From Chloroflexota bacterium (GTDB taxonomy: Bacteria > Chloroflexota > Dehalococcoidia > SHYB01), in contig VGPF01000010.1 of the NCBI GenBank assembly GCA_016875535.1, forward strand, positions 1 to 53,577: a stretch of DNA of 53,577 nucleotides, read 5' to 3'. This document shows positions 21,726 through 44,785 of the stretch, one piece after another. The translations under genes and the position numbers were made by a program. Position 1 is the first letter of the stretch, and each line of letters starts with the position of its first letter. Below the pieces are notes generated by a model that saw only the letters and a program-made list of their open reading frames with translations, did no database searches and was not told the DNA's origin.

Positions 21726-22991
21726 CTATTTCTTGCCAGACTTCGCGGGGCGACGCTTATGGTACCGCAAGGCGCTTCCAAGGACTTCCCCTGTGTGCTC
21801 GCCCACCAGCGGGGGGCGGCGGGAAATGCGCCAGGGCGCGGCGGGCAGGGAGAAGGGCGCACCCGGATAGAGCACCGTTCTGCCCAGTTCTTGGTGGCGC
21901 ACGGGGATGAAGAAGTCGTTCGCCTTGTAGTGCGGGTCTTCGAACAGGTCATGTGGGGCCATGATGCGCCCGCAGACGATGCCGCGCTTCTGCGCCTCCT
22001 CAAAGACCCATTGAGCGGGATGCAGGGCGCAGAACTCCCGGATGCGCTGGTCTATGAGATAGGCGTCCGTCTCGCGCTCCACCGGATCCCAATAGCGCGG
22101 GTCTTTGAGGTCCTCTGCGAGGCCGTCCGGCTCCAGCCAATCGAGCCAGGTCTGCCACAGCTTCTTCATGTCCTGGTACATGTACACCCCGGAGCCGATG
22201 CCGGGCATCATGTAGAGGTAGCCCTTGTCCGCGCAGCGGTACGTGTTGGAGGGGACAGGGTAGATGGTGGCGTAGCGCCCCCTGCCGCGGTAGACGCGCT
22301 TTTTGCCGTAGAGGTAGTAGTGCAGCGAGCTCTCCGTGGTGCAGCAGAGGGCGTCATGGATGGAGCAATCAAGGTAATCGCCTGTGCCGTGCTGCTCACG
22401 CCAGACGAGGGCCGCCGTCGCCGCGATGTAGGCGTAGTTGCAGCCAGTGTGCCAGGCCTGGTAATCGCCGGGGCGGATGGGCGGGATGGGCGGGTCATAG
22501 CCGCAGTTATCCATGAGACCGCCTATGGCGATGCTGACCAGTTCCGTGGTCTTCCAGCGGGCGTAGGGCCCAGTCTGGCCGAAGGGCGTGATGGCGACCA
22601 TAATGAGGCGCGGGTTCAGCTTGCTGAGCTTGGTGTAATCCAGGCCGATGCGCTTGAGATAGCCCGGCTCCGTGCCTTCGATAAGCAGATCGGCCTTGGC
22701 GGCCAGGGCGGCAAAGGCTTCGCGCCCACCGGGTGAGGCAAGGTCCATCGTGACCGACTGCTTGCCCGTGTTGTACTGCCAGAAGAAGAGGCTGCGATCC
22801 GCGCCGGGCGTATCATCCACAAAGGGGCCGATGCTCCGGCTAGGGCAGCCGCCCGGCGGCTCGATGAGCACCACGTCCGCGCCGCTATCGGCGAAGAGCT
22901 TGCCGCAGAGGTGAACCTTCTCATCGGCCAGCTCCAGGACGCGCAGGCCGTTCCAGACGCCGGGAGGCGCGTTCGACCGCTTGCCAGGCAT
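21726..22991 (-). CDS. Type III CoA-transferase, CaiB/BaiF family (type-1 subunit)
   Basis: A 421-residue protein that would transfer CoA between carboxylic acids without free CoA. The N-terminal fold begins GLRVLELADEKVHLCGKLFADSGADVVLIEPPGG, then GPF, DTP and YNTGK, a pattern shared with 32544-33788 and with the first half of the fused protein at 42299. The substrate loop PFGQTGPYARWK is present, and the C-terminal PLVGEHTGEVL is the family signature. Its start overlaps the stop of 22991-24232 by one base (TGATG), so the two are translationally coupled and probably form one heteromeric enzyme. Substrate is unknown. Confidence 0.92.
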   Translation of the reverse strand: MPGKRSNAPPGVWNGLRVLELADEKVHLCGKLFADSGADVVLIEPPGGCPSRSIGPFVDDTPGADRSLFFWQYNTGKQSVTMDLASPGGREAFAALAAKADLLIEGTEPGYLKRIGLDYTKLSKLNPRLIMVAITPFGQTGPYARWKTTELVSIAIGGLMDNCGYDPPIPPIRPGDYQAWHTGCNYAYIAATAALVWREQHGTGDYLDCSIHDALCCTTESSLHYYLYGKKRVYRGRGRYATIYPVPSNTYRCADKGYLYMMPGIGSGVYMYQDMKKLWQTWLDWLEPDGLAEDLKDPRYWDPVERETDAYLIDQRIREFCALHPAQWVFEEAQKRGIVCGRIMAPHDLFEDPHYKANDFFIPVRHQELGRTVLYPGAPFSLPAAPWRISRRPPLVGEHTGEVLGSALRYHKRRPAKSGKK

Positions 22992-24232
22992 CAGATGACC
23001 CCCGCCTTCTCATAGGCTTCGACCGAGGAGGAGGGCATGCCGAGGATGCTCTTGTAGACTTCGTCATTGAATTCGCGCATGGGGGTGGAGGAGTAGAGGG
23101 GTCCGGCCTGCTGTTTCGCGAATTTCACGGGCAGATCCGGAACCAGGCCGGAGCCCATCGTTGGATGTTCCAGAGACCTGAAGAGGTTGCGGTGCTTGAA
23201 CTGCGGATCGCGTTCGACGCGGTCTTCCCCGTTCTGCACCACGCCGGCGGGGATGCCCGCGGCCTGGAGGCGCTCCATCAAGGTGTAGCGGTCAAACCGG
23301 CGCGTCCACTCGCCGACGAGGGAATCCAGCGTGTCTTGGTTCTCGGCTCGCGACTCGCCGGTTGCGAACTTGGGGTCCTTTGCCCAGGATGGGTTGCCCA
23401 TCTCTTTGCACAGCGCGTGCCACTGGGCATCGTTCATGACGCTGATGGCGCACCATCGGTCATCGCCCTCACACGGGTATGCGCCATAAGGAGCGGCGGG
23501 CTGATACTTGGAGCGATTGCCGGCCACAAAGGCGTTGCGCTTGTTGACCGCGTAGTCCAAGAGCGATGGGCCGGTGAGGGTCGCGGCGCAGAAGACCTGC
23601 GAGAGGTCTATCCACTGTCCCTTCCCTGTCCTGCGGCGGTGATAGACGGCTTGGATGGCCGCCATGGCGGCATAGTAGCCGGAGGTGTGATCCATATAGG
23701 AGAAGCCCCAGCCGGAGGGTTCTTCGCTGGGGAGGCCGCCGAGGAAGGTGAGGCCGGAGAGGGCCTGGACGATGGGCCCAAGCGTGCGGTAGCTGCTGTA
23801 TGGGCCGATGCGCCCGGTGCCGGGCATGGAGATGTAGATGAGGTCAGGACGGAGCTTGCGCATCTCCGGGTAGGTGAGGCCCCAGGAGGGCAGGACTTTT
23901 GGCGTGAAGTTTTCTATGACGATGTCAGAGACGGAGATGAGTTCCCTGGCGATATCCCTGCCGCGCGGGTCTTGCATATTGAGGGTGACGCTCATCTTGC
24001 TATGGTATTCCACAGCCCAGGCGCCGCCGACCCCGGGGCCGAACTGGCCGCCGATGGAGCGGGAGGCGTGGGGCTTGAGGCTTTCGATCTTCACCACTTC
24101 AGCGCCGAATTCGGCGAGGAGGACGGTGGCCTGCGCCCCTGCGTGCCACCAGGTGAAGTCTGTGACGCGGATGCCGTCCAACGCGTAACCCCTGGTGGAG
24201 GGGCGGGCCGGGGGCTGAGGGCGCGTTGTCAT
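22991..24232 (-). CDS. Type III CoA-transferase, CaiB/BaiF family (type-2 subunit)
   Basis: A 413-residue CoA-transferase homologue. The N-terminus GIRVTDFTWWHAGAQATVLLAEFGAEVVKIES, then SKMSVTLNMQDPRG, DIVIENFTPKVL and TGKGQWIDLSQ, matches the second half of the fused protein at 42299-44785 much better than it matches its own neighbour. It is coupled by single-base overlaps to the acyl-CoA dehydrogenase upstream and to the type-1 CoA-transferase downstream. Pairing of unlike subunits is known for BbsEF and the Chloroflexus SmtAB enzymes. Confidence 0.92.
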   Translation of the reverse strand: MTTRPQPPARPSTRGYALDGIRVTDFTWWHAGAQATVLLAEFGAEVVKIESLKPHASRSIGGQFGPGVGGAWAVEYHSKMSVTLNMQDPRGRDIARELISVSDIVIENFTPKVLPSWGLTYPEMRKLRPDLIYISMPGTGRIGPYSSYRTLGPIVQALSGLTFLGGLPSEEPSGWGFSYMDHTSGYYAAMAAIQAVYHRRRTGKGQWIDLSQVFCAATLTGPSLLDYAVNKRNAFVAGNRSKYQPAAPYGAYPCEGDDRWCAISVMNDAQWHALCKEMGNPSWAKDPKFATGESRAENQDTLDSLVGEWTRRFDRYTLMERLQAAGIPAGVVQNGEDRVERDPQFKHRNLFRSLEHPTMGSGLVPDLPVKFAKQQAGPLYSSTPMREFNDEVYKSILGMPSSSVEAYEKAGVI

Positions 24233-28600: not shown

Positions 28601-29791
28601 CTACTTGCGCAGGGTATCGGCCCTGCCGAAGATGGCGACGCTGCCGGTGAAGGAGCCGGGGTAGCCGCCCAGGTTATGTGTGAGGCCGAGCCGGGCGTTC
28701 TTGACTTGGCGGGGGCCCGCCTTGCCCTGGAGTTGCTTATAGACCTCGTACATCATGCGGATGCCGCTTGCGCCGATGGGATGGCCGAAACACTTGAGCC
28801 CGCCATCCGTGTTGACCGGCAGTTCGCCCTCCAGGGAGAAGGTGCCGGCCTCCACATCCTTAGCGGCCTGGCCCCTGGGAGAGAACTGCAGGTCCTCCAT
28901 GATGATGAGCTCCGTAATAGTGAAGCAATCATGGACCTCCGCGATGTTGATCTCCTTGCGCGGATCCGCGATGCCCGCTTCGGCGTAGGCCTGCTTGGCG
29001 GCGCTGACGTTTTCCGGGAAGAAGTGGAACTCGGAATCGTCGCGCAGGGTGCCTTGATCGCCGCCGACGGCGAGGCCCATGCCTTTGACCAGGACGTAAT
29101 CGCTCCGCAAGGTCTTGGCGATCTCCGGGCGGGTGATGATGGCCACGGCCGCGCCATCGCTGACGCCGCAGCAATCGAAGAGGCTGAGCGGCCAGGCGAT
29201 CATGGGCGCTTTGAGCGCCTGCTCCAGGGTAATCTCTCGCTGGAAGTGGGCCTTGGGGTTGAGGCTGCCATTGTGGTGGTTCTTCACCGCGATCTTGGCC
29301 AGGACCTCCTTGCCCTTTTCCAGGGTGAGGCCGTACTTGTTGAAGTAGGCCGTGGCGGCCAGGGCGAACTGGGCCGGAGGGGGCGAGGGGGCGTCCACGT
29401 TCGTGTTCGGGAGGATAAAGGGCGAGGCGAGGCCTGTGAAGCCCGTGTCCTTGAGCTTCTCCACGCCCGCCACCATCACCATATCGTAGGCGCCGGCGGC
29501 CACGGCGAAGCAGGCGTTGCGGAAGGCGTCCGTCCCGGTGGCGCAGAAGTTCTCCACGCGGCTGATGGGGATATAGTCCAGCTTGAGGGCCTTAGCTAGG
29601 GGCTGGCCACTCCAGCCGGAGAGCATGGTGCCGAGCCAGGCGGCCTTGATGTCCTTGGCCTCCACGCCCGCATCCTTATAGGCCTCCTGCGCTGCTTCTG
29701 CCAGGAGGTCTTCCGGGCTATCGCCCCAGCGTTCGCCGAACTTGGTGCAACCCATGCCGACGATCGCCACTTTATCGCCTATGCCAGACAT
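28601..29791 (-). CDS. Thiolase (acetyl-CoA acetyltransferase, archaeal-type)
   Basis: A 396-residue thiolase with an intact nucleophile: Cys83 in ENFCATGTDAF. The other landmarks are EVHDCFTITELIIMEDL and the base-region His in CFGHPIGASGIRM. The late motif reads THNLGGYPG in place of the Cys-containing CxGGG of classical thiolases, as in archaeal-type enzymes that work with HMG-CoA synthase and DUF35. It likely performs the terminal thiolytic cleavage, or a condensation. Its upstream neighbour is precisely an HMG-CoA-synthase-like/DUF35 fusion (21 nt away). Confidence 0.93.
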   Translation of the reverse strand: MSGIGDKVAIVGMGCTKFGERWGDSPEDLLAEAAQEAYKDAGVEAKDIKAAWLGTMLSGWSGQPLAKALKLDYIPISRVENFCATGTDAFRNACFAVAAGAYDMVMVAGVEKLKDTGFTGLASPFILPNTNVDAPSPPPAQFALAATAYFNKYGLTLEKGKEVLAKIAVKNHHNGSLNPKAHFQREITLEQALKAPMIAWPLSLFDCCGVSDGAAVAIITRPEIAKTLRSDYVLVKGMGLAVGGDQGTLRDDSEFHFFPENVSAAKQAYAEAGIADPRKEINIAEVHDCFTITELIIMEDLQFSPRGQAAKDVEAGTFSLEGELPVNTDGGLKCFGHPIGASGIRMMYEVYKQLQGKAGPRQVKNARLGLTHNLGGYPGSFTGSVAIFGRADTLRK

Positions 29792-29812
29792 CGTGTGCCT
29801 CCTGGGGTGAGC

Positions 29813-31219
29813 CTATGCCCGGATTGGGGTGGTCTTCCAATAGTAGTTGTGCACACCGCCGATGACGCCGAGCTTGCGGAAGCTCAACTCCAGAGGCATG
29901 CCGACTTTTATCTGGTCAATCTCGCGATCGGTCATCATGAGGAGAGCGCGCCCGCCGCCATCGAAGTCCACGACGGTGATGACGAGGGGCACGTCCTGGG
30001 TCCCGGCGACGTAGTCCATGGAGAAGGTGACGATCTTGGCCTGTTTATCGGAGAGACGCACAGGGGACCAAGAGTCGTAGGCCTTGCAGAAGGCGCACTG
30101 CTTCTGCGGGGGGTATTGGACATGGCCGCAGACCGTGCACTTGCCGCCATAGAAACGCAGATTGCGATCGGCATCCCGCCAGGCGGCCTGGAGGGAGACG
30201 GGCTGAGGATCTGGGCGGCGCGCCGGTTCGGCGGCGAGGAGCCCGCGCCAGCGCAGGAAGTGCTCATAGGCGGGCAGCTTGGCCTTGGCCGCAAGGTGCT
30301 TCTTGATCAACCGCCGCCCGGCGCGCGCCTGTTCGATCTTGTCCGTGACCTTCAGGGCGTAGGCATCCGCGCCATCGCCATATCCGATGAGGAGGATGCG
30401 GTCGCCGGGCTTGGCATCTTCCAGGGCGGCCGCGAGCATCATGAGAGGGAAGGCCGTGCCGGTATTGCCCAGGGAGCCGAACATGGGGTCTTGCAGCTGC
30501 TGAGGCGAGAGGCCGAGCCTCCGGGCGATCTCACCGTGGCGGCGCGGGTCGGAGGCGTAGATGACGGCTTTGGCGAAGTCCTTGGGCGTGAGCTTGGTCT
30601 TTTTCGCCAGGCCTGTGGAGGCTTCGATGACGGCGGGGATGTAGCCTTCATCCGCGATGAAGCGGTCTTCGCCGGAGCGGATGTAGGTGTCCGTGGTGGA
30701 GCGCCACTGGTCAATCATGTGCTCGGTGACGAAGTGGGAGGCCTCGATCTCCACCGCGACGTCCGTATCCGAGATAAGGAGGGCGGCGCCGCCATCGCCC
30801 AGGTAGCGCTCCATATCGCTCTTGGGATAGGCGAGGCGCACATCGCCCGCGGCGAGAAGGACGTTCTTGGCGGACCCGGCGCGCACGGCATCGGCGGCGG
30901 CGCGGAGGCCGGAGGTCCCAGCGCGGAGGGTGGAGGCGAGGTCTTGGGAGAAGATGTCAGCCCGAAGGTCGAGCGCAGTGGCGATGGTGGAGGCGCTCTG
31001 CTTTTCAAAATAGGGGTTGGACGTGGTGGCGAAGAGGATGCCGTCCACGGCGTGCCGGTCTATGCCGCGAAGGCAATCTATGGCGGCCGCTGTGGCCATG
31101 GTGACGCTGTCTTCATCGAAGTTCGCGACGGCCCGTTCTCCGGGCGAACCCCAGCCGATCGTTTCCTTGGTCATCCGGTACTTCGGCACATAGGCGCCGA
31201 TCGCTCGTATGCCAACCAT
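29813..31219 (-). CDS. HMG-CoA synthase-like protein fused to DUF35 (zinc ribbon/OB)
   Basis: A 468-residue fusion. Residues 1-320 follow the archaeal HMG-CoA synthase/KAS III layout (IRAIGAYVPKYRM, DIFSQDL..AGTSGLRAA, GDGGAALLIS, GSLGNTGTAFPLMML, ILLIGYGDGADAYAL). Residues 355-468 form a DUF35 module with a four-Cys zinc ribbon (CTVC, CAFC) and an OB-fold. At the nucleophile position archaeal synthases read CKAGT; here it is LRAGT, Leu98 (codon CTC), so covalent acyl transfer by Cys is not expected. The protein may be an aldolase-like or scaffold component working with the thiolase encoded next to it. Confidence 0.87.
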   Translation of the reverse strand: MVGIRAIGAYVPKYRMTKETIGWGSPGERAVANFDEDSVTMATAAAIDCLRGIDRHAVDGILFATTSNPYFEKQSASTIATALDLRADIFSQDLASTLRAGTSGLRAAADAVRAGSAKNVLLAAGDVRLAYPKSDMERYLGDGGAALLISDTDVAVEIEASHFVTEHMIDQWRSTTDTYIRSGEDRFIADEGYIPAVIEASTGLAKKTKLTPKDFAKAVIYASDPRRHGEIARRLGLSPQQLQDPMFGSLGNTGTAFPLMMLAAALEDAKPGDRILLIGYGDGADAYALKVTDKIEQARAGRRLIKKHLAAKAKLPAYEHFLRWRGLLAAEPARRPDPQPVSLQAAWRDADRNLRFYGGKCTVCGHVQYPPQKQCAFCKAYDSWSPVRLSDKQAKIVTFSMDYVAGTQDVPLVITVVDFDGGGRALLMMTDREIDQIKVGMPLELSFRKLGVIGGVHNYYWKTTPIRA

Positions 31220-31233: not shown

Positions 31234-32541
31234 CTACCGCACGGTTGGGGCGTAGTCCATGCCGATGCGCCCCTCGGCGATGAGTTTGGTGTATTTTTCG
31301 TGATCTGTCACGAGCAGCTTTTCATAAACGTATTCATTGTCTTCGCCCATGCGGCAGGCGGCGCGGCGGATATGGTTGGGCGTGCGGCGCATCTTGAAGC
31401 CGATCCCCGGGTAGCGATGGGCGCCGCACTCGGGGTGCGTCAGGCGCTCAAAGAAGCCTCGGGCGTTGAAGTGGGGGTCGCTGAAGGCCTCCGCCTCGTC
31501 AATCACGGCGCCCGCGGGAACGCCCGCTTCCTGGAGGCGCCACATCAAGGCGTAGTGCTCCTGGTCCTTTGTCCACTGGGAGATATTTTCGTCTAACTCG
31601 TTATGATTTCGGAGCCGGCCGGCGTTCGTCTGATACTCGGGGTTTTGCGCCCAGGGCGGATCGCCCATCACCCGACAGAGGGCGCGCCACTCTTCGTCCG
31701 AGCTGACGGCGATGGCGACCCATTTGTCGTCGCCTTTACCGGGGTAGACGCCCTGGGGGGCGCAGCGCGCGCTGCGATTGCCCAGGAGCTCCGGCTGTCG
31801 CTTGTTCATGGAGTAGTCCATAAGCGCCTCTCCCATGTAGGTGGCGAAGTTCTCTGTCTGGGAGACCTCGACGAGCTGGCCCTGGCCGGTGCGCGCCCGG
31901 TGGCGCAGGGCCATGACGGCGGCGGTGGCGCCGCCGACGCCGGAAGGGCCATCGCCCACCGGCAGGACGCCGCGCATGGTGGCGTCCGTATCGGGATAGC
32001 CGCGCATCCAGAGGTGGCCGTTGACCGCCTCTATATGGGAGCCGAAGGCGCGATAGTTCTCGTAATCGCCGCCGAGGCCGTAGGGCGGGATGCGGAGCAT
32101 GATGATGTCCGGCCGGATGCGGCGCACGCGATCGTAGGTGATGCCGAGCTTTGCCAGATTGATGGGGACGTTGTTCTCCACGATGATGTCTGAGATGGCC
32201 ACCAGATCCTCAAAGATCTTGCCGCAATCCTCCGCCAGGAGATCCACGGTCATGCTGAGCTTGTTCCGCGCATGGTTCTGGAACATCGCGTAGCGGTTCC
32301 AGGGACGCTCGGCGGGGGTGTTCCCGGCATAGCCGTAGCCGGAGCCGCTCACGGCCTCCACGTACTCCTTTGGCGGCCGGGGCGTGGTGCCACGCGTGTA
32401 GGGAACAAAGACCTGGGTGGTGTCCATGCGGATGACTTCGGCGCCCCAATCGGCCAGGAGCATGGTGCAATAGGGCCCGGCGACGACCATGGTGAGATCC
32501 AGGACGCGGATGCCTTTCAGCGGCAGACGGTTGGCGCGCAT
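31234..32541 (-). CDS. Type III CoA-transferase, CaiB/BaiF family (type-2 subunit)
   Basis: A 435-residue CoA-transferase homologue. It starts GIRVLDLTMVVAGPYCTMLLADWGAEVIRMD, with NHARNKLSMTVDL and DIIVENNVPINLAKLG, and reads GQGQLVEVSQTENF in place of the usual DxSxxE segment. The VVAGP and NHAxNKLSM landmarks group it with the second half of the fused enzyme (42299) rather than with its upstream neighbour, 2 nt away. The C-terminus retains GAVIDEAEAFSDPHFNARGFF. It is predicted to pair with 32544-33788. Confidence 0.92.
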   Translation of the reverse strand: MRANRLPLKGIRVLDLTMVVAGPYCTMLLADWGAEVIRMDTTQVFVPYTRGTTPRPPKEYVEAVSGSGYGYAGNTPAERPWNRYAMFQNHARNKLSMTVDLLAEDCGKIFEDLVAISDIIVENNVPINLAKLGITYDRVRRIRPDIIMLRIPPYGLGGDYENYRAFGSHIEAVNGHLWMRGYPDTDATMRGVLPVGDGPSGVGGATAAVMALRHRARTGQGQLVEVSQTENFATYMGEALMDYSMNKRQPELLGNRSARCAPQGVYPGKGDDKWVAIAVSSDEEWRALCRVMGDPPWAQNPEYQTNAGRLRNHNELDENISQWTKDQEHYALMWRLQEAGVPAGAVIDEAEAFSDPHFNARGFFERLTHPECGAHRYPGIGFKMRRTPNHIRRAACRMGEDNEYVYEKLLVTDHEKYTKLIAEGRIGMDYAPTVR

Positions 32542-32543
32542 GG

Positions 32544-33788
32544 CTAGATGACGCCGTCCTTCCTCAGCTTCGCAAGCTCACCCGCGGAGAGGCCGAGGAT
32601 GCTGCCGAAGATCTCCCGATTGTGCTGGCCGAGCAAGGGCGCCGGACGGCGCAGTCTCCAGGGGCTATTGGGCATGATGAAGGGCCTGCCCGGATATTCC
32701 AGCTTGCCAGCCACGGGGTGGTTGATCGCCGGAAAGAAGCCCCTGGCGCGGTAGTACGGGTCGTTGAAGAACTGGCCGGGGGACATCACGGGGGCGGTGG
32801 CGAGTCCCGCGCGCTGGGAATCCCTCCACACGGTATAGAGGTCGCGCTCAAGGGTCCAGGGAAGAAGGTACTCATTGTTGAATCGGTCTATTGCCTGGGG
32901 GCTTACGCCGCGCTCGTAATCCACGAAGTCCGGGTCGTTCGCGAGTTCCGGCTTGCCCACCATCTCAGCGACGCGGGAGAAACGGTTGATGCCGGACCAG
33001 AAGCAGATATAGCCATCGGCGCAGGGGAAGATGCCGAAGGCCAGGCCCGTGGCATCGCTATGGCGCTTGGTGACGACGCCGGTGTATTCATAGTTCAGCA
33101 TGTAGATGCTGCGGCGGTCCTGGTTGCCGGCTTGGGTCTCAAAGACGGAGACGTCCAGGTAATCGCCGAAGCCATCGAATTCGCGGCGGAAGAGGGCCGT
33201 CACGGTGGCGAAGCAGGCGTTCTGACCCGTCTGGTACATGCCGATGTTGCCGCCGAGCTTCACCGGCGGCCTGTCCGGATAGCCGGTGGAGTGCAGCTGG
33301 CCGCCGATGCCGTACTCAATGAGCTCATTGGCCTTGAAGTCACGATAGGGGCCGGTCTGTCCAAAGTTCGAGATGGAGGTCATCACGATGTTCGGCGCGG
33401 TCTTGTGGAGCTCCTCGTAATGCAGGCCTAAGCGCTCCATAGTCCCCGGGCTGAAGCTCTCCACAATAGCATCCGCACTCTTCAACAGTTCCAGGAAGAT
33501 CTGTCGGCCCTGGTACTGTTTCAGATCCAGGGTCACGCCGAACTTGTTGGTGTTCAGGTAGAGGAAGGGGCCGCATCTCTCCGGGTGGGGGACATCATGG
33601 AGGAACGGCCCCACATGGCGCAGGCCATCGCCTGTGCCTGGGCGCTCGATCTTGATGACATCCGCGCCGTAATCGGCGAGGAGCTTGGTGCAGAACGGCC
33701 CGGCGATGTAATGAGTCAGGTCAAGGACGCGAAGGCCATGGAGAGGGCCGGGGGCCGCCCGCGCCTGTTTTTGCGCGGAGCCGGTCAT
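32544..33788 (-). CDS. Type III CoA-transferase, CaiB/BaiF family (type-1 subunit)
   Basis: A 414-residue CoA-transferase homologue. The frame can begin at GTG 33800, but ATG 33788 makes the classic ATGA overlap with the upstream hydratase stop and is preferred. GLRVLDLTHYIAGPFCTKLLADYGADVIKIERPG is followed by GPFLHDVPHPE and YLNTNKFGVTLDL, the type-1 pattern shared with 21726-22991 and the first half of 42299. Also seen are NFGQTGPYRDFK and the C-terminal PLLGQHNREIFG. Confidence 0.92.
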   Translation of the reverse strand: MTGSAQKQARAAPGPLHGLRVLDLTHYIAGPFCTKLLADYGADVIKIERPGTGDGLRHVGPFLHDVPHPERCGPFLYLNTNKFGVTLDLKQYQGRQIFLELLKSADAIVESFSPGTMERLGLHYEELHKTAPNIVMTSISNFGQTGPYRDFKANELIEYGIGGQLHSTGYPDRPPVKLGGNIGMYQTGQNACFATVTALFRREFDGFGDYLDVSVFETQAGNQDRRSIYMLNYEYTGVVTKRHSDATGLAFGIFPCADGYICFWSGINRFSRVAEMVGKPELANDPDFVDYERGVSPQAIDRFNNEYLLPWTLERDLYTVWRDSQRAGLATAPVMSPGQFFNDPYYRARGFFPAINHPVAGKLEYPGRPFIMPNSPWRLRRPAPLLGQHNREIFGSILGLSAGELAKLRKDGVI

Positions 33789-34718: not shown

Positions 34719-34755
34719 ACCGGCCGTCCTGGCCTGTTTTGAAGGAGTTGAGCGG

Positions 34756-35919
34756 ATGTCCACGCTGCACAAGAAGGCTGCCATCGCCGGTGTCTACGAG
34801 TATCCCCGCAGGCGCGCCCCCGACCGCACGGTATGGCAGATCCAGGCGGAATCGGCCGCGATGGCCTTGGCGGAGTCCGGGCTGACTATCAAGGACGTGG
34901 ATGGGTTCATGAACGCGGACAGCTACTCCTCCATGTATATGGCCGAGTACTTGGGCCTCAATCCGAAGGTGATGGACAATACGCAAGTCGGCGGCTCCTC
35001 CTTCCTGCTGCATACGACGCGCGCGGCCGCGGCCATCGCCGCGGGCATGTGCGAAGTGGTGCTGATCACCTACGGCAGCACGGCCCTTTCCCAGGGCAGC
35101 GCCATCGGCACCGGGGGGTTCCGCAAGCAGACGGTGGACCCTAGGCCGGATAGCTTCGAGGCGCCCTACGGCACCATCCTGGCGGCGCTCTATGCCAATG
35201 TGGCATCCCGGCATATGCACCAGTACGGGACCACGAGCGAACAGCTGGCGGAGATCGCCGTGACGACGCGCCGCCATGCGGGCATGAACCCTACCGCCAT
35301 GTATCGGGATCCCATCACGGTGCAAGACGTCCTTAGCTCGCGCATGATCGCCTCGCCTTTGCACATGCTGGACTGCTGCGTCATCTCGGATGGCGGCGGC
35401 GCGGTCATCGTCACCAGCCCTTCGCGGGCCAAGAGCCTCAAGACCAAGCCCGTCTGGCTTCTGGGCTCGGGGGAAGGCTATGCCCACCTGAGCAGCGGCC
35501 ACCGCGATTTCACCACCATCGCGGCGGCGCAGTCGGGTCCGCACGCCATGGCTATGGCTGGGGTGAAGCACAAGGACATTGACCTGGCGATGGTCTACGA
35601 CTCCTTCACGATCACGGCGCTGACGACGCTGGAGGACCTGGGCTTCTGCAAGAAGGGCGAAGGCGGCAGCTTTGTCCAGGGCGGGCGGCTTGCCGTTGAT
35701 GGCGACCTGCCCATGAACACGGACGGAGGAGGGCTCTCTTCGAACCATCCAGGGATGCGCGGCATCTTTCTGATCATCGAAGCTGTGAAGCAGCTGCGGG
35801 GCGATTTCAAGGGCACCCCCAGGCAGGTGAAGAACTGTAAGATCGCCATCTGCCACGGCACGGGCGGCAACTTGGGCTCGCGGCATAGCGGCGTGACCCT
35901 GGTGCTGGGGGCCGACTAA
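34756..35919 (+). CDS. Thiolase-superfamily protein lacking the nucleophilic Cys
   Basis: A 387-residue SCP2-thiolase/Ltp-type protein. The nucleophile region reads QVGGSSFLLH (Gly80 aligned to Cys83 of the thiolase at 28601). It keeps MVYDSFTITALTTLEDLGFCKKGEGG and NTDGGGLSSNHPG, as well as a late Cys (ICHGTGG). It resembles 20570-21712 in pattern but has no DUF35 gene next to it; the DUF35 protein at 20133 or the fused module at 29813 could serve in trans. Expected activities are aldol cleavage or a non-Cys CoA reaction. It heads a two-gene operon with an MFS transporter. Confidence 0.88.
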   Translation: MSTLHKKAAIAGVYEYPRRRAPDRTVWQIQAESAAMALAESGLTIKDVDGFMNADSYSSMYMAEYLGLNPKVMDNTQVGGSSFLLHTTRAAAAIAAGMCEVVLITYGSTALSQGSAIGTGGFRKQTVDPRPDSFEAPYGTILAALYANVASRHMHQYGTTSEQLAEIAVTTRRHAGMNPTAMYRDPITVQDVLSSRMIASPLHMLDCCVISDGGGAVIVTSPSRAKSLKTKPVWLLGSGEGYAHLSSGHRDFTTIAAAQSGPHAMAMAGVKHKDIDLAMVYDSFTITALTTLEDLGFCKKGEGGSFVQGGRLAVDGDLPMNTDGGGLSSNHPGMRGIFLIIEAVKQLRGDFKGTPRQVKNCKIAICHGTGGNLGSRHSGVTLVLGAD

Positions 35920-35950
35920 GTGACGGCATGCTGCGGATGGTGACCCTACC

Positions 35951-37240
35951 GTGACAGAGACCGCAGCTACAGAGCCGAAGGCGCCCCGGGCCGATTGGCA
36001 CTGGCTCTTCGGCATCATGACGGCCCTGCTGGCCGCCGCGCTCCCCATGTCCGCCTATTCCGCCTCCTTGGCCATCATCCAGGAGGAGTGGGGGATGACG
36101 AACAGCCAGGCGGGGCTGGTCAATAGCGCCACGGCTGTCGGCTCCGTCATCGCCGCCCTGGTCATCGCGCCCATGACCGACCGCCTGCGCGCCGATCGCG
36201 TGCTGATTACGGCCGGGCTCTCCGCCGCGCTCGCGCAGATACTTTTCCCCCTGGTGGCGCACAATTTCGGCGTCGCGATGACGCTGCGCTTCTTTGTGGG
36301 CCTTAGCATCTCCGGCATCTACGTCACTGGGACGCGCGTGGTTGCAGAGCGCTTCGCCCTGGCGGGACGGGGGACGGCGACGGGCCTCTATGTGACGACT
36401 TTCTATCTGGGCTCGGGACTCTCCTTCACGCTCATCGGCGCCTTCATCCCGTTGCTGGGCTGGCGCGGCGCGACCACGCTCTTCGCCGGGCTCTCCTTCC
36501 TCACGCCCATCGTGCTCTACCTTATCCTGCGCGGCTACCGCCCGTCAGGAGTGCGCGATACCCGGGCCACGCTGGACCTGAGCGTGCTGAAGAGCAAGCC
36601 CGCGAGCGTCATGATCTTCGGCTATTTCATGCACTCCATCGAGCTTTCACACCTGCGCACCTGGCTCACACCCTTCCTGGCCTTTGTCCTTGTCGCCTAT
36701 GGCGGCTTCGAATCGGAGCATGCCGCCGCCCGCGCGGCCGTCATCTTCGGCATCTGGAACATCGTGGGGGCGGCGGCGCCTTTCCTGGGAGGCGTCCTTT
36801 CCGACCGGGTGGGCCGTTTGCGCGCCGCCATCGCCCTGTGCGCCCTGAGCGCCGCCTGCTCCATGACGATGGGATGGATCGGCGGCGCGCCCTGGGCGAT
36901 GGTCCTTGCTCTGAGTCTGGTCTACACCATCACCACCGGCGCGGACTCCGCCATCTACACCACCAGCGTCACGGAGGTTGCGATCCCCGGCAAGATGGGC
37001 TCCACGCTGGCGGTGCACGGCTTCTTCGGCTTTGCGGCAGGCATCGTCTCGCCCGCCCTTTTCGGCGGCCTTCTTGATATCACCGGGCGAGAAAGCCTGA
37101 CGGGCTGGGGGCTCGGCTTCGCGACTGCCGGCATCGGCGGGCTGCTGGCTGTGCTGGCGATGCTGTGGCTGATGCGCATCCCCGCCGCCTACGCCGCCAT
37201 CGAGGCGCGGACGAGCCGCGCCCGGCAAGCCGCTCACTAG
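35951..37240 (+). CDS. MFS transporter
   Basis: A 429-residue twelve-helix transporter, starting at GTG 35951, 31 nt after the thiolase-like gene. Between helices 2 and 3 is the MFS loop APMTDRLRADRVL, a weakened form of GxxxDRxGRR; the second half has GGVLSDRVGRLRAAIAL. Charged residues lie in the central loop. It resembles the cyanate/aromatic-acid type of MFS proteins. As partner of a CoA-dependent enzyme it may import the acid that is then activated. Its stop lies only 2 nt from the stop of the convergent gene on the other strand. Confidence 0.92.
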   Translation: MTETAATEPKAPRADWHWLFGIMTALLAAALPMSAYSASLAIIQEEWGMTNSQAGLVNSATAVGSVIAALVIAPMTDRLRADRVLITAGLSAALAQILFPLVAHNFGVAMTLRFFVGLSISGIYVTGTRVVAERFALAGRGTATGLYVTTFYLGSGLSFTLIGAFIPLLGWRGATTLFAGLSFLTPIVLYLILRGYRPSGVRDTRATLDLSVLKSKPASVMIFGYFMHSIELSHLRTWLTPFLAFVLVAYGGFESEHAAARAAVIFGIWNIVGAAAPFLGGVLSDRVGRLRAAIALCALSAACSMTMGWIGGAPWAMVLALSLVYTITTGADSAIYTTSVTEVAIPGKMGSTLAVHGFFGFAAGIVSPALFGGLLDITGRESLTGWGLGFATAGIGGLLAVLAMLWLMRIPAAYAAIEARTSRARQAAH

Positions 37241-37242: not shown

Positions 37243-38259
37243 CTATGGCATCACTTTGGTGATGGGCGGCACGCCGACGATCGTGGGCAGGAAGGTGGAG
37301 TGATAGCCTGCGATGCCGCCGGCGACCAGGATAGGCAGGCGTGCGGGACGTTCGTCCGCCTTGCCGCCGGTGAGGCATGTGGGCGCATTGATGCGCGATT
37401 CCGCCCCGTAGACCGGCTTGAAGTCAACACGTTTGAAGAGCTCTTCCCGGATGCGGTGTTTGTCCCATCCTCGGCCTGCGAAGATCTTGGCGTGGATAGG
37501 GCAGAGTAAGAGCACCGGCAGGCCGCCGTCCTGGTGGTAGGCGGTGGCGTAGCCCTCGATATATTTCATGCATGCCGCGATGTTGTTGATCAGGTCTTCC
37601 GGATTAACCTTGATGACGCGATAGAAGATCGGCACGGTGCCGGTGACGGCGAAGGCCGTGACGGCGCTTTGCCCTGCGGCGGTCCCCTGTTCTCTTGCGT
37701 ATGTCTCCCAAGGGCTCGCCCCTTCGCTCTCAGCGAAGCACATGCCCTGCCGCCCGGGGGATCCGTGGGCGCTCTTGCTCACCGCGCTAGGCGAAGCGCC
37801 CCCGATGTTCAGGAGAATGAGTCGCAAGGCCCGGCCGATCGTCGCATTCGCGCGCGCACCTGAGGCAAAGAGGTCGTGGCCGCTGCTCAGCCCGATCTTC
37901 TCCGTCATAGGGCCGCTGACGACGATCATGGGGGCATAGGGGGCCGTCCACGGCGCGATGCGGTCCAGCTGGAAATTCGGGTCGGCGACCGCAGAGACGG
38001 CGGCGCAGACAACGGGCATGTATCCGGGTAAGCAGCCTGCCATGACTGCGTTGACGGCCACCTTTTGCACAGTGGCACGCCCGCGGCGCGGCCCGATGAA
38101 GCCGAGGGTGTGATCGCCGGGGCGGCCTGACGCGGCAATCATCGCCTGGACGCGATCAGGCGTTGGGGGAACGATGGGCAGACCATCGGTCCAACCGCGC
38201 CGGTAGAGGTCTTCGTAGGCGCTCTCCTGGGAGGTCGCGAGTGGTTTTTCGGAGGTCAT
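37243..38259 (-). CDS. Conserved protein of unknown function, co-encoded with a UGSC-type protein
   Basis: A 338-residue soluble protein without a signal peptide. Distinctive segments are LYRRGWTDGLPIVPPTPDRVQAMI (about 18-41), VNAVMAGCLPGYMPVVCAAV (about 70), FASGARANATIGRALRLILLNIGG (about 130-153), and a late LLLCPIHAKIFAGRGW. I have the impression of having seen this N-terminal signature in uncharacterised proteins often paired with UGSC-family genes, but cannot name the family. Conserved Cys residues in CLPGYMPVVC suggest redox or thiol chemistry, which is speculative. It is 35 nt downstream of the UGSC-type gene. The ATG at 38259 has no clear ribosome site. Confidence 0.72.
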   Translation of the reverse strand: MTSEKPLATSQESAYEDLYRRGWTDGLPIVPPTPDRVQAMIAASGRPGDHTLGFIGPRRGRATVQKVAVNAVMAGCLPGYMPVVCAAVSAVADPNFQLDRIAPWTAPYAPMIVVSGPMTEKIGLSSGHDLFASGARANATIGRALRLILLNIGGASPSAVSKSAHGSPGRQGMCFAESEGASPWETYAREQGTAAGQSAVTAFAVTGTVPIFYRVIKVNPEDLINNIAACMKYIEGYATAYHQDGGLPVLLLCPIHAKIFAGRGWDKHRIREELFKRVDFKPVYGAESRINAPTCLTGGKADERPARLPILVAGGIAGYHSTFLPTIVGVPPITKVMP

Positions 38260-38973: not shown

Positions 38974-39990
38974 ATGAAGTACGCCTTGCGTCTCGACGAT
39001 AAGAGCATGCCCCATATGATCGAGCGCGCGAAGCGCGCCGAGGCGGCGGGTTTTGAGGCGCTTTTCGCGGGAGAGCTTGCCGGCACCCCCTACGTGAACT
39101 GCGCCGCGGTCGCCGGGCATACGACGACCATCAAGCTAGGCACCGGTGTCGCGTACGCCTTCGTGCGCAGTCCCATGACGACGGCGCTGACTGCGCTGGA
39201 CCTCGATCGGCTTACGGACGGGCGCTTCATCCTTGGCCTCAGCACCAGCCTGCCGCGGCTCATCGAAAACTGGCACAACATGCCGTACGGCAAGCCGATC
39301 CCGCACATCAAAGAGTATCTGCAGGTGACGCGCCTCATCATGGAGAACGCCCACAAGATGCGGCCGATCCAGTTCAACGGTGAATACTACAAGACCAACA
39401 TTGTGGGGTATATGCGCCCGTGGCGTCCGGTGCGCGAGAAGATGCCGATCCTTCTCGGCGCGGTAGGGCCCGGCATGATCAAGACGGCCGGTGAGGTTGC
39501 CGATGGACTCATCGCCCACCCGGTCTATACGCTCAAATATATCAAGGAAGTCATGCAGCCGAAGCTTGCCGAGGGAATGGCGAAAGGCGGCAAGGAACGG
39601 AAGGACTTTTTCGTCTGGCTCTATGTGGACGTGCTTATCGGCAATGATAAGAAGACCCTTCTGGAGATCGCGCGCGGCACGCCAGCCTTCTACGCCACCG
39701 TGCGCTCCTATGAGCCGTTCTTTGCCCTCCACGGCTTCCAACAGCAGGCGCAGCAGATCCAGCAGATCTTCCGTGAGAACAAGGGGTTCTCGCCGAAGAT
39801 GAATGCGGCTGTGACCGATGAGATGGCTGAGACGTTCGTGGCGATGGGCACGGCGGATGAGGTGCGCAGGAAGATCGCCGAGTATGGCCAGTATGCCGAC
39901 GGCATCATCTTGCAGACGCCGACCCAGGCCATGAAGCGCGCCGACGCCCTCCCGTACGAGAACGCCCTCTTTGACGTCTTTGGGAAATAA
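38974..39990 (+). CDS. LLM-class flavin-dependent oxidoreductase (F420/FMN, luciferase-like)
   Basis: A 338-residue TIM-barrel flavin enzyme of the MER/luciferase-like family. Landmarks are IERAKRAEAAGFEALFAGE (N-terminus), TTTIKLGTGVAYAFVRSPMTTALTALDLDRLTDGRFILGLS (about 50-90) and PILLGAVGPGMIKTAGEVADGLIAHP (about 153-178, flavin-phosphate site). GGAG lies 7 nt before the ATG. The neighbouring gene 48 nt downstream is a paralogue. Members use reduced F420 or FMN for reductions or monooxygenations; no flavin reductase is encoded nearby, so F420 is the simpler guess. Confidence 0.9.
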   Translation: MKYALRLDDKSMPHMIERAKRAEAAGFEALFAGELAGTPYVNCAAVAGHTTTIKLGTGVAYAFVRSPMTTALTALDLDRLTDGRFILGLSTSLPRLIENWHNMPYGKPIPHIKEYLQVTRLIMENAHKMRPIQFNGEYYKTNIVGYMRPWRPVREKMPILLGAVGPGMIKTAGEVADGLIAHPVYTLKYIKEVMQPKLAEGMAKGGKERKDFFVWLYVDVLIGNDKKTLLEIARGTPAFYATVRSYEPFFALHGFQQQAQQIQQIFRENKGFSPKMNAAVTDEMAETFVAMGTADEVRRKIAEYGQYADGIILQTPTQAMKRADALPYENALFDVFGK

Positions 39991-40038
39991 CCGCCAAGCG
40001 GAGCGATCCGCCGCCGCGAAGAGATAAGGAAGAACGAC

Positions 40039-41061
40039 ATGAAGATATACGCTGGTCTGGGGTCGGGCACTGCCGCCCAGCTTATCGAGCGGGCGAAGAC
40101 GGCGGAATCCGCCGGGATGGACGGCGTGTGGGCGGAGCAGCTCAACGGCGGCGCCCCCTTTGTCCCGCTGGCCACCGTCGCAGGCCACACCTCGCGTATC
40201 CAGCTGGGCACCTCCATCGCCTTAGCTTTTACCAGAAGCCCGCTTGAGACGGCCCTGACCGCGCTGGACATGGATTACATCAGCGGCGGCCGCTTCAACC
40301 TCGGCCTTGGCTCCGGCGTCCAGCGCCTGGTGGAGATGTGGCACGGCGTGAAGAACTACGGCAAGGCGGTGCCGCACCTGCGCCAGACCGTGGAACTCGT
40401 CCGCATGATCATCAAGGACGCCCACACGGGCAAGCCCATCACCTACCAGAGCGAGTACTACGATGTGAAGGTAGTCGGCTGGCGGCGGCCCATCGCGCCG
40501 GTGCGGGAGCGCATCCCCATCTACCTGGCGGGCGTCCAGGGCGGCATGGCGCGGCTCGCCGGTGAGGTGGCGGAAGGGATGTTGGGTCACATCATCTGGT
40601 CGCCCTACTGGATCAAAGAGGTCATCCACCCCAATGTGAAGATCGGCCTGGATAGAGCCGGGCGCAAGCGCAGCGATATCGAACTGACCGTGCCCCTGGT
40701 GGTCATCATCTCCAAGGATCGCAAGGCCGCCCGCCATGACGCCGCTCGTGAGGTCGGCTTCTTCTCGACGGTTCGCACCTATCAGCCGCTTTTTGAGGCG
40801 CACGGTTTCGGCAAGCTCACGACGGAGATCCAGCAGATCTTCAAGACCGAAGGGGGCCACAGCCCCAAGATCGCCCAGCTGGTTACGGACGAGATGATTG
40901 ACGCTTTCACCGTCGTCGGCACCGTGGATGAAGTGCGGAAGAAGATCGCCGTTTTCAAGGACCTGGTGGACGGCATCATGGTTGAGGTGCCCGGCTTCCA
41001 CATGGACAGCGAGAAGACGAACGAATACCGCACGGCGCTCTTCGAGACGTTCGGACGCTAG
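40039..41061 (+). CDS. LLM-class flavin-dependent oxidoreductase (tandem paralogue)
   Basis: A 340-residue luciferase-like enzyme, tandem duplicate of the preceding gene. It shares AQLIERAKTAESAGMDGVWAEQ, IQLGTSIALAFTRSPLETALTALDMDYISGGRFNLGLGSG, PIYLAGVQGGMARLAGEVAEGMLGH and the FSTVRTYQPLFEAHGF region, where its neighbour has YATVRSYEPFFALHGF. AGGAAG precedes the ATG. The pair may act on related substrates or form a heteromer. An acyl-CoA dehydrogenase begins 18 nt downstream. Confidence 0.9.
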   Translation: MKIYAGLGSGTAAQLIERAKTAESAGMDGVWAEQLNGGAPFVPLATVAGHTSRIQLGTSIALAFTRSPLETALTALDMDYISGGRFNLGLGSGVQRLVEMWHGVKNYGKAVPHLRQTVELVRMIIKDAHTGKPITYQSEYYDVKVVGWRRPIAPVRERIPIYLAGVQGGMARLAGEVAEGMLGHIIWSPYWIKEVIHPNVKIGLDRAGRKRSDIELTVPLVVIISKDRKAARHDAAREVGFFSTVRTYQPLFEAHGFGKLTTEIQQIFKTEGGHSPKIAQLVTDEMIDAFTVVGTVDEVRKKIAVFKDLVDGIMVEVPGFHMDSEKTNEYRTALFETFGR

Positions 41062-41079
41062 AGGCCGGCAGGGGTTATC

Positions 41080-42273
41080 GTGGACTTCCGCTTCTCGCCT
41101 GAAGAAGAGACGTTCCGCCAAGAGGTGCGCGACTTCCTCAGGAAGCACGCCCCTGCCGAATATGCTAATCAGCAGCTCGGCGATAAAGAGACCGAGGAGT
41201 TTCGCAAGCGATTCGCCCGCGCCCTTGGCGAGAAGGGATGGCTTGCCGTCTCCTGGCCCAGGGAGTACGGGGGCCAGAGCTGGTCGCCGATGCAGCAGAT
41301 GATCTTCAACGAAGAGATGTCCTTGGCGCGCGCGCCGCGGCCCGCAGGCGCCGGCCTTGGCCTTGTGGGCCCCACGCTCATGCAGTACGGGACCCCTGAG
41401 CAAAAGGCGAAGCACCTGCCCAAGATCGCGAAGGAAGAGCTCCTCTGGTGCCAGCTCTTCAGCGAGCCGAACGCCGGCTCCGATCTGGCCGGCCTCCAGA
41501 CGAAGGCCGAGGACAAGGGTGATTATTTCCTGGTGAACGGCCGCAAGATATGGTCGAGCGACGCGCACCGGGCCCAGTGGGGGCTCCTCCTCGCTCGAAC
41601 GAACCCGGATGTGCCGAAGCACAAAGGCATCAGCACCTTCCTGCTCGAGATGTCCCTTCCAGGCATCACGGTCCACCCCATCGTCACCATGGTCCGCGAA
41701 TGGCGCGCGGTGGGCACCCACAACTTCAGCGAAGTTGTCCTGGAGAATGTGCGGGTGCCGCGCGACTGCCTTGTGGGCGAAGAGGACAAGGGCTGGCTTC
41801 AAGCCGTCACGGGTCTGGAGTCTGAACGCTCCAATCTCGCCGCGACGATATCCGTGCGCCGATTCCTTGACGAATTGCTCGAGTACATCAAGACTATGCC
41901 GTCGCGCCAGCGCGAGCGCATCAGGCAGACGGGCCTGCACCACCAGCTTGCGCAAGTCGCCATGGACCTCCAGGTGGCAAAGGCGCTCGGCTACGCCATC
42001 GTCTCCAAGCAGATGCGCAAGCAGTCTCCGAGCCGGGAGGCCTCTCAGACAAAGCTCTTTGTCACCGAACTGGAGCAGCGCGCCGCACGCATCGGCATGC
42101 AGGCGCTGGGCTTGGCGGGCCAGCTTGAGCGCGGCGATAGGAAGGCCCCGATGCTGGGCCGTGTGGAGCGCCTGTATCAGATCAGCGTCGCCTCCACGAT
42201 CGGCGTCGGCACCTCGGAGATCCAGCGCAACATCATCGCCGCGCGCGGGCTCGGGCTCCCTGCCGCAAAGTGA
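41080..42273 (+). CDS. Acyl-CoA dehydrogenase
   Basis: A 397-residue flavin dehydrogenase starting at GTG 41080 (VDFRFSPEEETFRQEVRDFL). Signatures are SWPREYGGQSWSPMQQ at about 64, WCQLFSEPNAGSDLAGLQT at about 126-144, the substrate-contacting region NGRKIWSSDAHRAQWG, and the C-terminal IGVGTSEIQRNIIAARGLGLP. The C-terminal catalytic-base region is not obvious, as in the type of subunit represented by 25356-26510. It follows the LLM pair by 18 nt and is followed 25 nt later by the fused CoA-transferase. Confidence 0.93.
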   Translation: MDFRFSPEEETFRQEVRDFLRKHAPAEYANQQLGDKETEEFRKRFARALGEKGWLAVSWPREYGGQSWSPMQQMIFNEEMSLARAPRPAGAGLGLVGPTLMQYGTPEQKAKHLPKIAKEELLWCQLFSEPNAGSDLAGLQTKAEDKGDYFLVNGRKIWSSDAHRAQWGLLLARTNPDVPKHKGISTFLLEMSLPGITVHPIVTMVREWRAVGTHNFSEVVLENVRVPRDCLVGEEDKGWLQAVTGLESERSNLAATISVRRFLDELLEYIKTMPSRQRERIRQTGLHHQLAQVAMDLQVAKALGYAIVSKQMRKQSPSREASQTKLFVTELEQRAARIGMQALGLAGQLERGDRKAPMLGRVERLYQISVASTIGVGTSEIQRNIIAARGLGLPAAK

Positions 42274-42286
42274 TCGCGGCGTCTGC

Positions 42287-42292
42287 TAGACT
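42287..42292 (+). promoter_or_regulatory. Extended -10 (TGCTAGACT) just before the fused CoA-transferase
   Basis: TAGACT preceded by TGC lies 6 nt before ATG 42299, and no ribosome-binding site precedes that ATG. The layout matches the leaderless promoter at 11748. No good -35 is present, so an internal leaderless start is only possible. Confidence 0.4.
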
Positions 42293-42298
42293 CTCCGC

Positions 42299-44785
42299 AT
42301 GGAGCATAAGCGAGCGCGCCCCGTGAGCGGCCGGTTTCCCCTGAGCGCCTACCGCGTTTTGGACCTCACGGACGCGAAGGCCTTTCTCTGCGGCCGCATC
42401 CTTGGCGACCTCGGCGCGGACGTCATTAAGATCGAGCCGCCCGGGGGCGACCCCGAGCGGCTAGTCGGTCCCTTCCACCATGACACGCCTGACCCGGATC
42501 GCTCGCTCTCCTATTGGGCCTACAACACCAACAAGCGCAGCATGACGCTTGATCTGGGAAGGCCCAGCGATAGGCGGACCTTCCTGCGCATGGCGGCGGC
42601 CGCCGACTTTGTCATCGAGTCAAAACCGGTCGGCTATCTGAGATCCCTGGGACTGGGCTATGACGATCTCCGCCGGTCCAACCCGAGCCTGGTCATGACT
42701 GCGGTCTCGCCCTTCGGCCAAGCCGGTCCGTATAAGGACTATAAGAACGGCGACCTGATCGCCATGGCTACAGGGGGGTTGCTCTACATCGCAGGCAACC
42801 CGGAACGGCGACCCGTCGTCATCGGCGTTCCCCAGTCATACTGCCAGGCTGGAGCGCAGGCCGCGGTGGGCACGTTGATCGCCCATTATCACCGCCTCAT
42901 GACCGGCCAGGGACAGTATGTAGACCTTTCGATGCAAGAGGCGGTGACGGACTCTCTCGATTGGGTCCAACAGTACTACGATACCCGCCAGGTCATCTGC
43001 ACGCGCGGCGGCACACCTGGGTTGAAGATCCACCGCAACTGGGTGTGGGAATGCAAGGACGGTTACGTCTCTTGGGTCTGGTGGGTCGGCGCGGGCTGGG
43101 GTCGCAAGAATACCCCCCTTCTTGCAATGATGAAGGAGGACGGCATTGACGAGGGCCTGCTCCAAGTCCCGTGGGAGGAGAAGAGCCTCTACAAACTCTC
43201 CCAGAGCGAAGTGGACAAGTGGGAGTCTGCCTTCCGCCGCTTCTTCAAGCTGCATACGGTGCAGGAGATGCTGGACGCGGCCATAAAACGGCGTATCCTG
43301 CTCTTTCCTATCAACGGCCCTAAGCGCGTTGTCCATAACGAGCAGCTTAGGGCTCGCAAGCTCTTTGTTGCTCTCAAACCGCACGGACTCGATGCGGCGG
43401 TCAAGTTTCCCGGCCCGCCGCTCAAAAGCTCCAAGCCTCTGTGGCGGGCGCCGAGCCCTACTCCAACGGTTGGGCAACACACTAGGGAGATACGCAGTGA
43501 GCTCGGGCGCTGGAAGCGCGCCGCGTACGCTTCGGCCCGGCCTGGTCCAAGGCGCGCCCTTGAAGGTCTGAAAGTCGCCGATTTCACATGGCTTGTTGCC
43601 GGGCCCACCGTGTCCAAGTATCTCGCGATGTTCGGCGCGACGGTCGTTAAGGTGGAGAGCAGCACGAGGCTCGATGGTACTCGCCAGACCGGGCCGTTTG
43701 CGGGGAAGCCCACGTTTAACTCGAGCGCTCAATTCGCGAATCACAACACCTCCAAGCTCAGCCTGGGCGTGAACATGACGAAGCCCGAAGGCCTGGAGAT
43801 CGCCCGGAAGCTGGCCAGCTGGGCGGACGTTGTGGTGGAAAACTTCACCCCCGGCGTGATGGAGAAGTGGGGCCTGGGCTATCAGGCCATCCGCAAGACG
43901 AACCCAAGCGTGGTGATGCTTAGCTCATCCTTCCAGGGACAGACCGGCCCAAACGCCCAGCAGTCCGGCTATGCCTCGCTCTTGCATGCGCTATGCGGCA
44001 TCAACCACGTGACAGGCTGGCCGGACCTTCCACCGGTTGACCTTGGCGCAGCCTACGGTGACCTCATCGGCGTTTGGTTCGCCCTTTCCACGGTGCTTGC
44101 GGCTCTTGAGCGGCGGCACAGGACAGGCAAGGGCGTCTACATTGACCTTTCTCAGTTCGAGTCCGCCGTTCATTTTCTCGCCCCGGCCGTGCTCGATTAC
44201 ACCGTCAACGGCCGCGAGTGGTCGCGGCAGGGGAATCGCTCTGACATCGCTGCGCCGCACAATACCTATCGCTGCGCCGACGACCCCGCCGCCGGCGCCG
44301 CCGCCAATGATCGCTGGTGCGCCATCGCCTGCTACACCGAGCAGGAGTGGCGATCGCTCTGCGGCGCGATGGGCAAGTCAGGGCTGGCGCGGGATCCGCG
44401 CTTTGCGACACAGGATTTGCGAAGGCGAAACGCGGGCGCCCTGGATGCCGTCATTGACACCTGGACTAGCGGGTTCAAGGCCGAGGAGGTTATGCGACGC
44501 TTGCAGCGGGCGGGCGTTCCGGCCGGTGTTGTGGCCAGCGGGTATGACCTTCACGCGAATGAGCAGTTGCGCCACCGTGGTCACTTGGCAAAGCTTCAGC
44601 ACCCGCAAATGGGCCTCCGCACCTATGATTGCCCGTCCTTCCGCCTCTCTTTGACGCCCCATGAAATGCGGCCCGCGCCCCTTCTCGGCGAGCACACGCA
44701 TCGCGTCGTCACCGAGCTTCTGGGCCTCTCCGATGAGAGGTACGCCGAACTCCTCGGCGCCGGCGTTCTTGAGCAGGAATCCTGA
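42299..44785 (+). CDS. Fused double type III CoA-transferase (type-1 + type-2 CaiB/BaiF modules)
   Basis: An 828-residue protein containing two complete CoA-transferase modules. Module 1 (about 1-400) begins YRVLDLTDAKAFLCGRILGDLGADVIKIEPPGG, has DTPDPDRSLSYWAYNTNKRSMTLDL and GQGQYVDLSMQEAV, and ends PTVGQHTREI. Module 2 (about 418-828) begins GLKVADFTWLVAGPTVSKYLAMFGATVVKVES, has NHNTSKLSLGVNM, VVVENFTPGVMEKWG and TGKGVYIDLSQFESA, and ends PLLGEHTHRVV. Single members are about 400 residues, so this is a true fusion. Module 1 matches 21726-22991 and module 2 matches 22991-24232. It would act as a self-contained heterodimer equivalent. Confidence 0.93.
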   Translation: MEHKRARPVSGRFPLSAYRVLDLTDAKAFLCGRILGDLGADVIKIEPPGGDPERLVGPFHHDTPDPDRSLSYWAYNTNKRSMTLDLGRPSDRRTFLRMAAAADFVIESKPVGYLRSLGLGYDDLRRSNPSLVMTAVSPFGQAGPYKDYKNGDLIAMATGGLLYIAGNPERRPVVIGVPQSYCQAGAQAAVGTLIAHYHRLMTGQGQYVDLSMQEAVTDSLDWVQQYYDTRQVICTRGGTPGLKIHRNWVWECKDGYVSWVWWVGAGWGRKNTPLLAMMKEDGIDEGLLQVPWEEKSLYKLSQSEVDKWESAFRRFFKLHTVQEMLDAAIKRRILLFPINGPKRVVHNEQLRARKLFVALKPHGLDAAVKFPGPPLKSSKPLWRAPSPTPTVGQHTREIRSELGRWKRAAYASARPGPRRALEGLKVADFTWLVAGPTVSKYLAMFGATVVKVESSTRLDGTRQTGPFAGKPTFNSSAQFANHNTSKLSLGVNMTKPEGLEIARKLASWADVVVENFTPGVMEKWGLGYQAIRKTNPSVVMLSSSFQGQTGPNAQQSGYASLLHALCGINHVTGWPDLPPVDLGAAYGDLIGVWFALSTVLAALERRHRTGKGVYIDLSQFESAVHFLAPAVLDYTVNGREWSRQGNRSDIAAPHNTYRCADDPAAGAAANDRWCAIACYTEQEWRSLCGAMGKSGLARDPRFATQDLRRRNAGALDAVIDTWTSGFKAEEVMRRLQRAGVPAGVVASGYDLHANEQLRHRGHLAKLQHPQMGLRTYDCPSFRLSLTPHEMRPAPLLGEHTHRVVTELLGLSDERYAELLGAGVLEQES

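Follow-up and report, generated by a model that had tools for sequence, protein, structure and literature searches.

Paired and fused CaiB/BaiF modules in a small Chloroflexota genome as probable asymmetric class III CoA-transferases

Do neighbouring CaiB/BaiF genes encode as many enzymes as there are genes, or do they work together as heteromers? Few families have expanded as strongly in SAR202-type Chloroflexota as CaiB/BaiF, whose members are usually counted as separate enzymes. We explored this question in a stretch of 53,577 nucleotides (hereafter, the window). It makes up contig 10 of a draft assembly of 2.52 Mb, with 98% completeness and 1.15% contamination. The 16S rRNA of this genome was 97.6% identical to that of a same-genus MAG and 84–85% identical to those of three Dehalococcoidia/SAR202 MAGs, and we place the source in Chloroflexota, probably in Dehalococcoidia. 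The initial annotation had proposed six CaiB/BaiF modules of two types, arranged as two split pairs and one natural fusion. Pfam recovered all six as full-length PF02515 modules at the same positions (244–340 bits vs a curated cut-off of 23.3): the four single genes matched with E = 3e-73 to 9e-98, and an 828-aa ORF contained two matching stretches. The assignment of each module to its type proved exact. No NCBIfam family scored above cut-off for the five CoA-transferase genes of the window, which were the following:

21726..22991, minus strand: unit 1, type-1 (BbsE-like) module, second gene of its pair (PF02515 3e-73; E clade); Trp180 at the catalytic position (codon 22452-22454)
22991..24232, minus strand: unit 1, type-2 (BbsF-like) module (PF02515 9e-98; F clade); catalytic Asp181 (codon 23690-23692)
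31234..32541, minus strand: unit 2, type-2 module (PF02515 6e-93; F clade); catalytic Asp197 (codon 31951-31953)
32544..33788, minus strand: unit 2, type-1 module (PF02515 1e-89; E clade); Met184 at the catalytic position, in the numbering of the ATG-start protein (codon 33237-33239)
42299..44785, plus strand: unit 3, fused type-1–type-2 protein of 828 aa with two PF02515 stretches in one ORF; Tyr181 at the catalytic position of the first half (codon 42839-42841), catalytic Asp588 in the second half (codon 44060-44062), linker at about residues 390–420

The stop codon of the type-2 gene and the start codon of the type-1 gene overlap by 1 base in unit 1, and the two genes of unit 2 are 2 bases apart, its type-1 gene probably starting at ATG 33788 (a 4-base overlap with the upstream gene) and not at GTG 33800. 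Every unit had one aspartate equivalent to Frc D169, located in the type-2 module, the type-1 modules having W, M, and Y there.

Genome-wide, we found 109 PF02515 matches (about 43 per Mb), in a range of 0 to about 50 per Mb given by first-look candidate counts in relatives. A maximum-likelihood tree was built without the catalytic columns from an alignment of all 103 full-length modules (from the window and 46 further stretches) with five PDB sequences, two of them BbsE and BbsF. It resolved a type-1 clade of 40 modules of this genome plus BbsE and a type-2 clade of 40 modules plus BbsF (support 100/99 each); the type-1/type-2 split described for the six window modules extends beyond the window. 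Pairing was one-to-one: 37 adjacent pairs had one member in each clade. Outside both BbsEF clades, a second lineage contributed six further pairs, five of them fused (C1:15430-17667, C2:83642-85942, C8:44791-47163, C12:38147-40444, C12:44603-46864, and C25:22863-25092). Together with a fused C4 protein, left out of the tree because the Pfam match to its first half was too fragmented, the genome has about 44 units, 12 of them fused, which account for 88 of its roughly 109 modules. Relatives of the second lineage were also seen on plasmids of Sphingomonas, Rhodococcus, and Mycobacterium, where they are annotated merely as 'CoA transferase'.

Identities among the six window modules were 32–34% within type 1, 33–38% within type 2, and 22–32% across types. 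Mean identity was 32.9% within type 1, 35.2% within type 2, and 26.6% within pairs, and partners were not each other's closest relatives. The closeness of the modules on the DNA might suggest recent tandem duplications at one locus, the two types being an accident of divergence; this origin is refuted by the tree and is extremely improbable, since identity between partners is 27% and the two belong to different clades (support 100/99), one with BbsE and the other with BbsF. Instead, distances among type-1 modules mirrored those among their type-2 partners (Mantel r = 0.76, a value reached in 0 of 5000 permutations); the pairs therefore multiplied as pairs. Three type-1 modules (C23:5065, C17:23711, and C1:60156) and two type-2 modules (C1:11603 and C1:50807) had no neighbouring partner. 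C23:5065 and C1:11603 take corresponding positions in the tree; they may work as partners although their genes lie apart.

The two types differed at the catalytic position, a feature that the initial annotation had overlooked, as it had the roughly 44 units of the genome. Aspartate was present at the Frc D169 position in 40/40 type-2 modules of the genome and absent from 34/40 type-1 modules, in which the residue was Y (8), E (6), Q (5), L (4), A (3), W (2), S (2), or V, T, H, and M (1 each). The second lineage had the same distribution, with aspartate absent in 6/6 first modules and present in 6/6 second modules. Among the 43 adjacent same-strand pairs, 37 were Asp/non-Asp, six Asp/Asp, and none non-Asp/non-Asp; shuffling the labels (20,000 times, ignoring the shared ancestry of pairs) gave a mean of 20.6 mixed pairs and a maximum of 32, vs the 37 observed. 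Aspartate was thus confined to the BbsF-type subunit in 3/3 window units and 31/37 main-lineage pairs. BbsEF itself follows this pattern, BbsF D178 and BbsE Y171 falling in the same alignment column, and PDB entry 9fol is entitled 'D178-CoA adduct'.

Loss of the aspartate was not accompanied by relaxed selection. Compared with same-genus orthologs, dN/dS was 0.101 in type 1 and 0.096 in type 2 (n = 12 and 14, respectively), indicating equal purifying selection on both types; with a dN/dS of about 0.10, decay of the type-1 gene is rejected. Conservation in type 1 also extends to the remaining conserved glycines and to the alignment columns of K98 and R45. A two-headed enzyme, in which type 1 would be active through another residue and each unit would have two sites of different acid specificity, could account for these conserved positions and for the Glu in 6/40 and Asp in 6/40 type-1 modules of the genome. 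We consider it very improbable: the position otherwise varies freely among Y, W, M, Q, L, A, S, H, V, and T, and no other type-1 residue has become newly invariant in an obvious catalytic role. In Frc and CaiB, the D169A/E/S and D169A mutants, respectively, are inactive. These mutants, represented in the PDB, likewise argue against a two-headed enzyme. The six Asp-bearing type-1 modules (C1:88961, C5:68920, C13:39283, C17:19389, C22:19874, and C29:21369) all belong to one subclade of 12, and judging from this residue their units may have two working sites; because of these six and of the six modules with Glu, the label 'inactive' perhaps does not apply to all of type 1.

Gene order and fusion point to coupling of the two types. 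Type 1 leads in 35/37 main pairs, window unit 1 being one of the two exceptions. In 25/32 split pairs the ATG of the second gene lies within -30 to +60 bases of the first stop codon, and 15 of these 25 overlap by 1 or 4 bases. All 26 fused proteins that we aligned, drawn from this genome, its relatives, and three proteobacterial MAGs, had type 1 as the N-terminal half, with Asp in 0/26 first halves and 26/26 second halves. A single ancestral fusion, giving one fused clade, was rejected (p-AU 6e-55); within the main lineage the fusion state changed at least four times, in counts that do not tell fusion from fission.

Neighbouring genes could nevertheless encode two separate homodimeric CoA-transferases of one pathway, their adjacency and fusion reflecting shared regulation only, in line with the homodimeric state of CaiB, YfdE, and Mct (PMC5592240) and with the Asp kept by six type-1 modules. 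Against this reading, which we regard as unlikely, most type-1 modules have no nucleophile yet are constrained like type 2, the partner trees match, fusion state has changed at least four times with type 1 always first, and BbsEF provides a precedent. Most probably, each unit is a single BbsEF-like enzyme, an asymmetric class III CoA-transferase composed of a catalytic type-2 module and a non-catalytic type-1 partner.

The predicted fold of the fused protein is consistent with such an assembly. AlphaFold2, run on unit 3 with 25 fused homologs (26 sequences), gave a mean pLDDT of 92.5 and a pTM of 0.94 over 828 residues, as expected of a single rigid body. In the PDB, the model came closest to BbsEF (9fn0) chain D (TM 0.96 along the chain) and also matched chain A. 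Sequence searches gave BbsE (9fn0 chain A, 1e-56) as the best hit of the first half and BbsF (chain B, 2e-76) as that of the second. Class III enzymes are interlocked dimers, as described for YfdE (PMC3720670).

In the mechanism that we propose for BbsEF-kind units, the nucleophilic Asp of type 2 (D181, D197, and D588 in the window) would take the acyl group of the CoA donor as a mixed anhydride, then hold CoA as an aspartyl thioester and hand it to the acceptor acid. The type-1 module, having lost the nucleophile, would be an obligate structural partner in an interlocked heterodimer, so that each dimer would have one working active site out of a possible two; this module would probably also select the substrate. 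In the fused form, both halves would make up a single chain. The donor is probably succinyl-CoA or acetyl-CoA, and the acceptor would be an organic acid feeding a beta-oxidation-type pathway. The obligate BbsEF-like heteromers put forward by the initial annotation gain support, for the two types, the pairing, and the analogy, from the tree, the fusions, the gene coupling, the catalytic asymmetry, and the fold; from these we infer the complex itself, its subunit interaction, and the inactivity of the type-1 site.

The asymmetry recurred in other bacteria. In loci from Dehalococcoidia, Desulfobacterales and other Deltaproteobacteria, Firmicutes, and Alpha- and Betaproteobacteria, we found 24 adjacent E/F pairs with Asp in every type-2 module and in only one type-1 module. 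In G036, a genome of the same class and another family, 25/25 type-2 modules had the Asp and 25/26 type-1 modules did not, six of these 25 type-1 residues lying in alignment gaps; the fused-protein alignment placed G, H, A, and P at the site in four of the six, and the raw sequence of the other two had a Trp near the site and no Asp. Eleven main-lineage pairs of G036 were fused.

The gene context bears on what the three window units are for, their number having been taken as a sign of parallel activation of several related acids. They lie in two groups of genes:

34591 to 20570, minus strand: units 1 and 2 within an inferred operon of 12 tightly packed genes (-4 to +91 bases between neighbours); in this direction, enoyl-CoA hydratase (ECH), type 1, type 2, HMG-CoA-synthase-like/OB, thiolase, ECH, amidohydrolase, two acyl-CoA dehydrogenases, type 2, type 1, thiolase
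38974..49370, plus strand: genes around unit 3; two luciferase-family oxidoreductases, acyl-CoA dehydrogenase, fused CoA-transferase, TetR regulator, SDR, luciferase-family, SDR, luciferase-family

Parallel activation is not well supported by this arrangement, in which both split pairs share one operon and only the fused unit lies in another. Two transferases in one operon suggest two CoA-transfer steps of one degradation pathway, and units 1 and 2 more likely serve successive steps of a beta-oxidation-type pathway than parallel ones. The first 4.8 kb of the operon are collinear in the same-genus genome G013 (82%), and a beta-oxidation-type gene, scored by similarity to window genes, was found at most 5 kb away from 28/43 pairs genome-wide. 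The presence of three units so close together, on which the same proposal had drawn, is not notable at the scale of the window: an even spread predicts about 0.94 units per 53.6 kb, with P(≥3) of about 0.07. On the 23-kb span that they occupy, clustering reached P = 0.008 (even spread of about 44 units over the genome).

Several of these features are already known: BbsEF, fused two-domain CoA-transferases such as DddD, and the CaiB/BaiF expansion in SAR202. BbsEF, the one solved heteromeric class III structure that our searches turned up, forms an alpha2beta2 assembly (PMC5592240). Like the units described here, which their sequences class as BbsEF-type, it has two PF02515 subunits, with BbsE Tyr171 in the type-1 clade and BbsF Asp178 in the type-2 clade. 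It differs from them in sequence (about 32–36% identity over the structural alignment of unit 3), and the units of this genome number about 44, some of them fused. No toluene-pathway (bss/bbs) genes were among the window genes identified by Pfam. DddD, the DMSP CoA-transferase/lyase, compared here by architecture alone, likewise has two CaiB domains in one chain (residues 1-416 and 439-821 in Endozoicomonas; PMC7174347) and acts on DMSP with acetyl-CoA (PMC8163506). SmtAB, compared by description alone, is also a heteromeric class III enzyme, with an (alpha-beta)6 structure (PMC5592240), but the units here have no malate context. The SAR202 study (PMC5395668) concerns a strong expansion of the same family in a related lineage, some of the matches being DddD-like; in its accessible sections, that paper counts paralogs, with no mention of active/inactive pairs or of fusions that recur. 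Our literature search, which left most subscription journals outside its coverage, found no description of such pairs, although this does not prove that none exists. As far as these searches showed, what is new is the catalytic asymmetry throughout the set, the presence of roughly 44 units in a genome this small, and the fact that fusion is repeated.

With 88 of about 109 modules in about 44 units, mostly with one catalytic Asp each, the number of enzymes to assign in this genome is about halved, and the asymmetry tells which gene of a pair carries catalysis. The natural single-chain fusions lend themselves to experiments on heteromeric class III CoA-transferases. More tentatively, as a possibility that we would not yet favour, the CaiB/BaiF expansion here might consist mainly of asymmetric heterodimers whose Asp-less module diversifies for acid specificity, and the fusions might be covalently closed interlocked dimers, their halves threading through each other, that evolved independently several times.

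Other genes of the window gave additional observations. Within the operon, at 28601-31219, an HMG-CoA-synthase-like protein fused to a zinc-ribbon/OB domain is followed by a thiolase; the former is closest to the archaeal type, below that family's cut-off, and we take the arrangement to resemble the archaeal thiolase/HMG-CoA synthase/DUF35 complex. Two neighbouring, closely similar SDR genes lie at 17347-19212. A dead partner in this pair was considered by analogy with BbsCD (on the basis of a title cited in PMC10818641) and rejected: both SDRs retain YxxxK, so neither is an inactive partner as in BbsCD. Finally, long minus-strand ORFs at 34717-36048 and 37243-38259 had no Pfam match, and the first of them overlaps an MFS transporter gene on the opposite strand.
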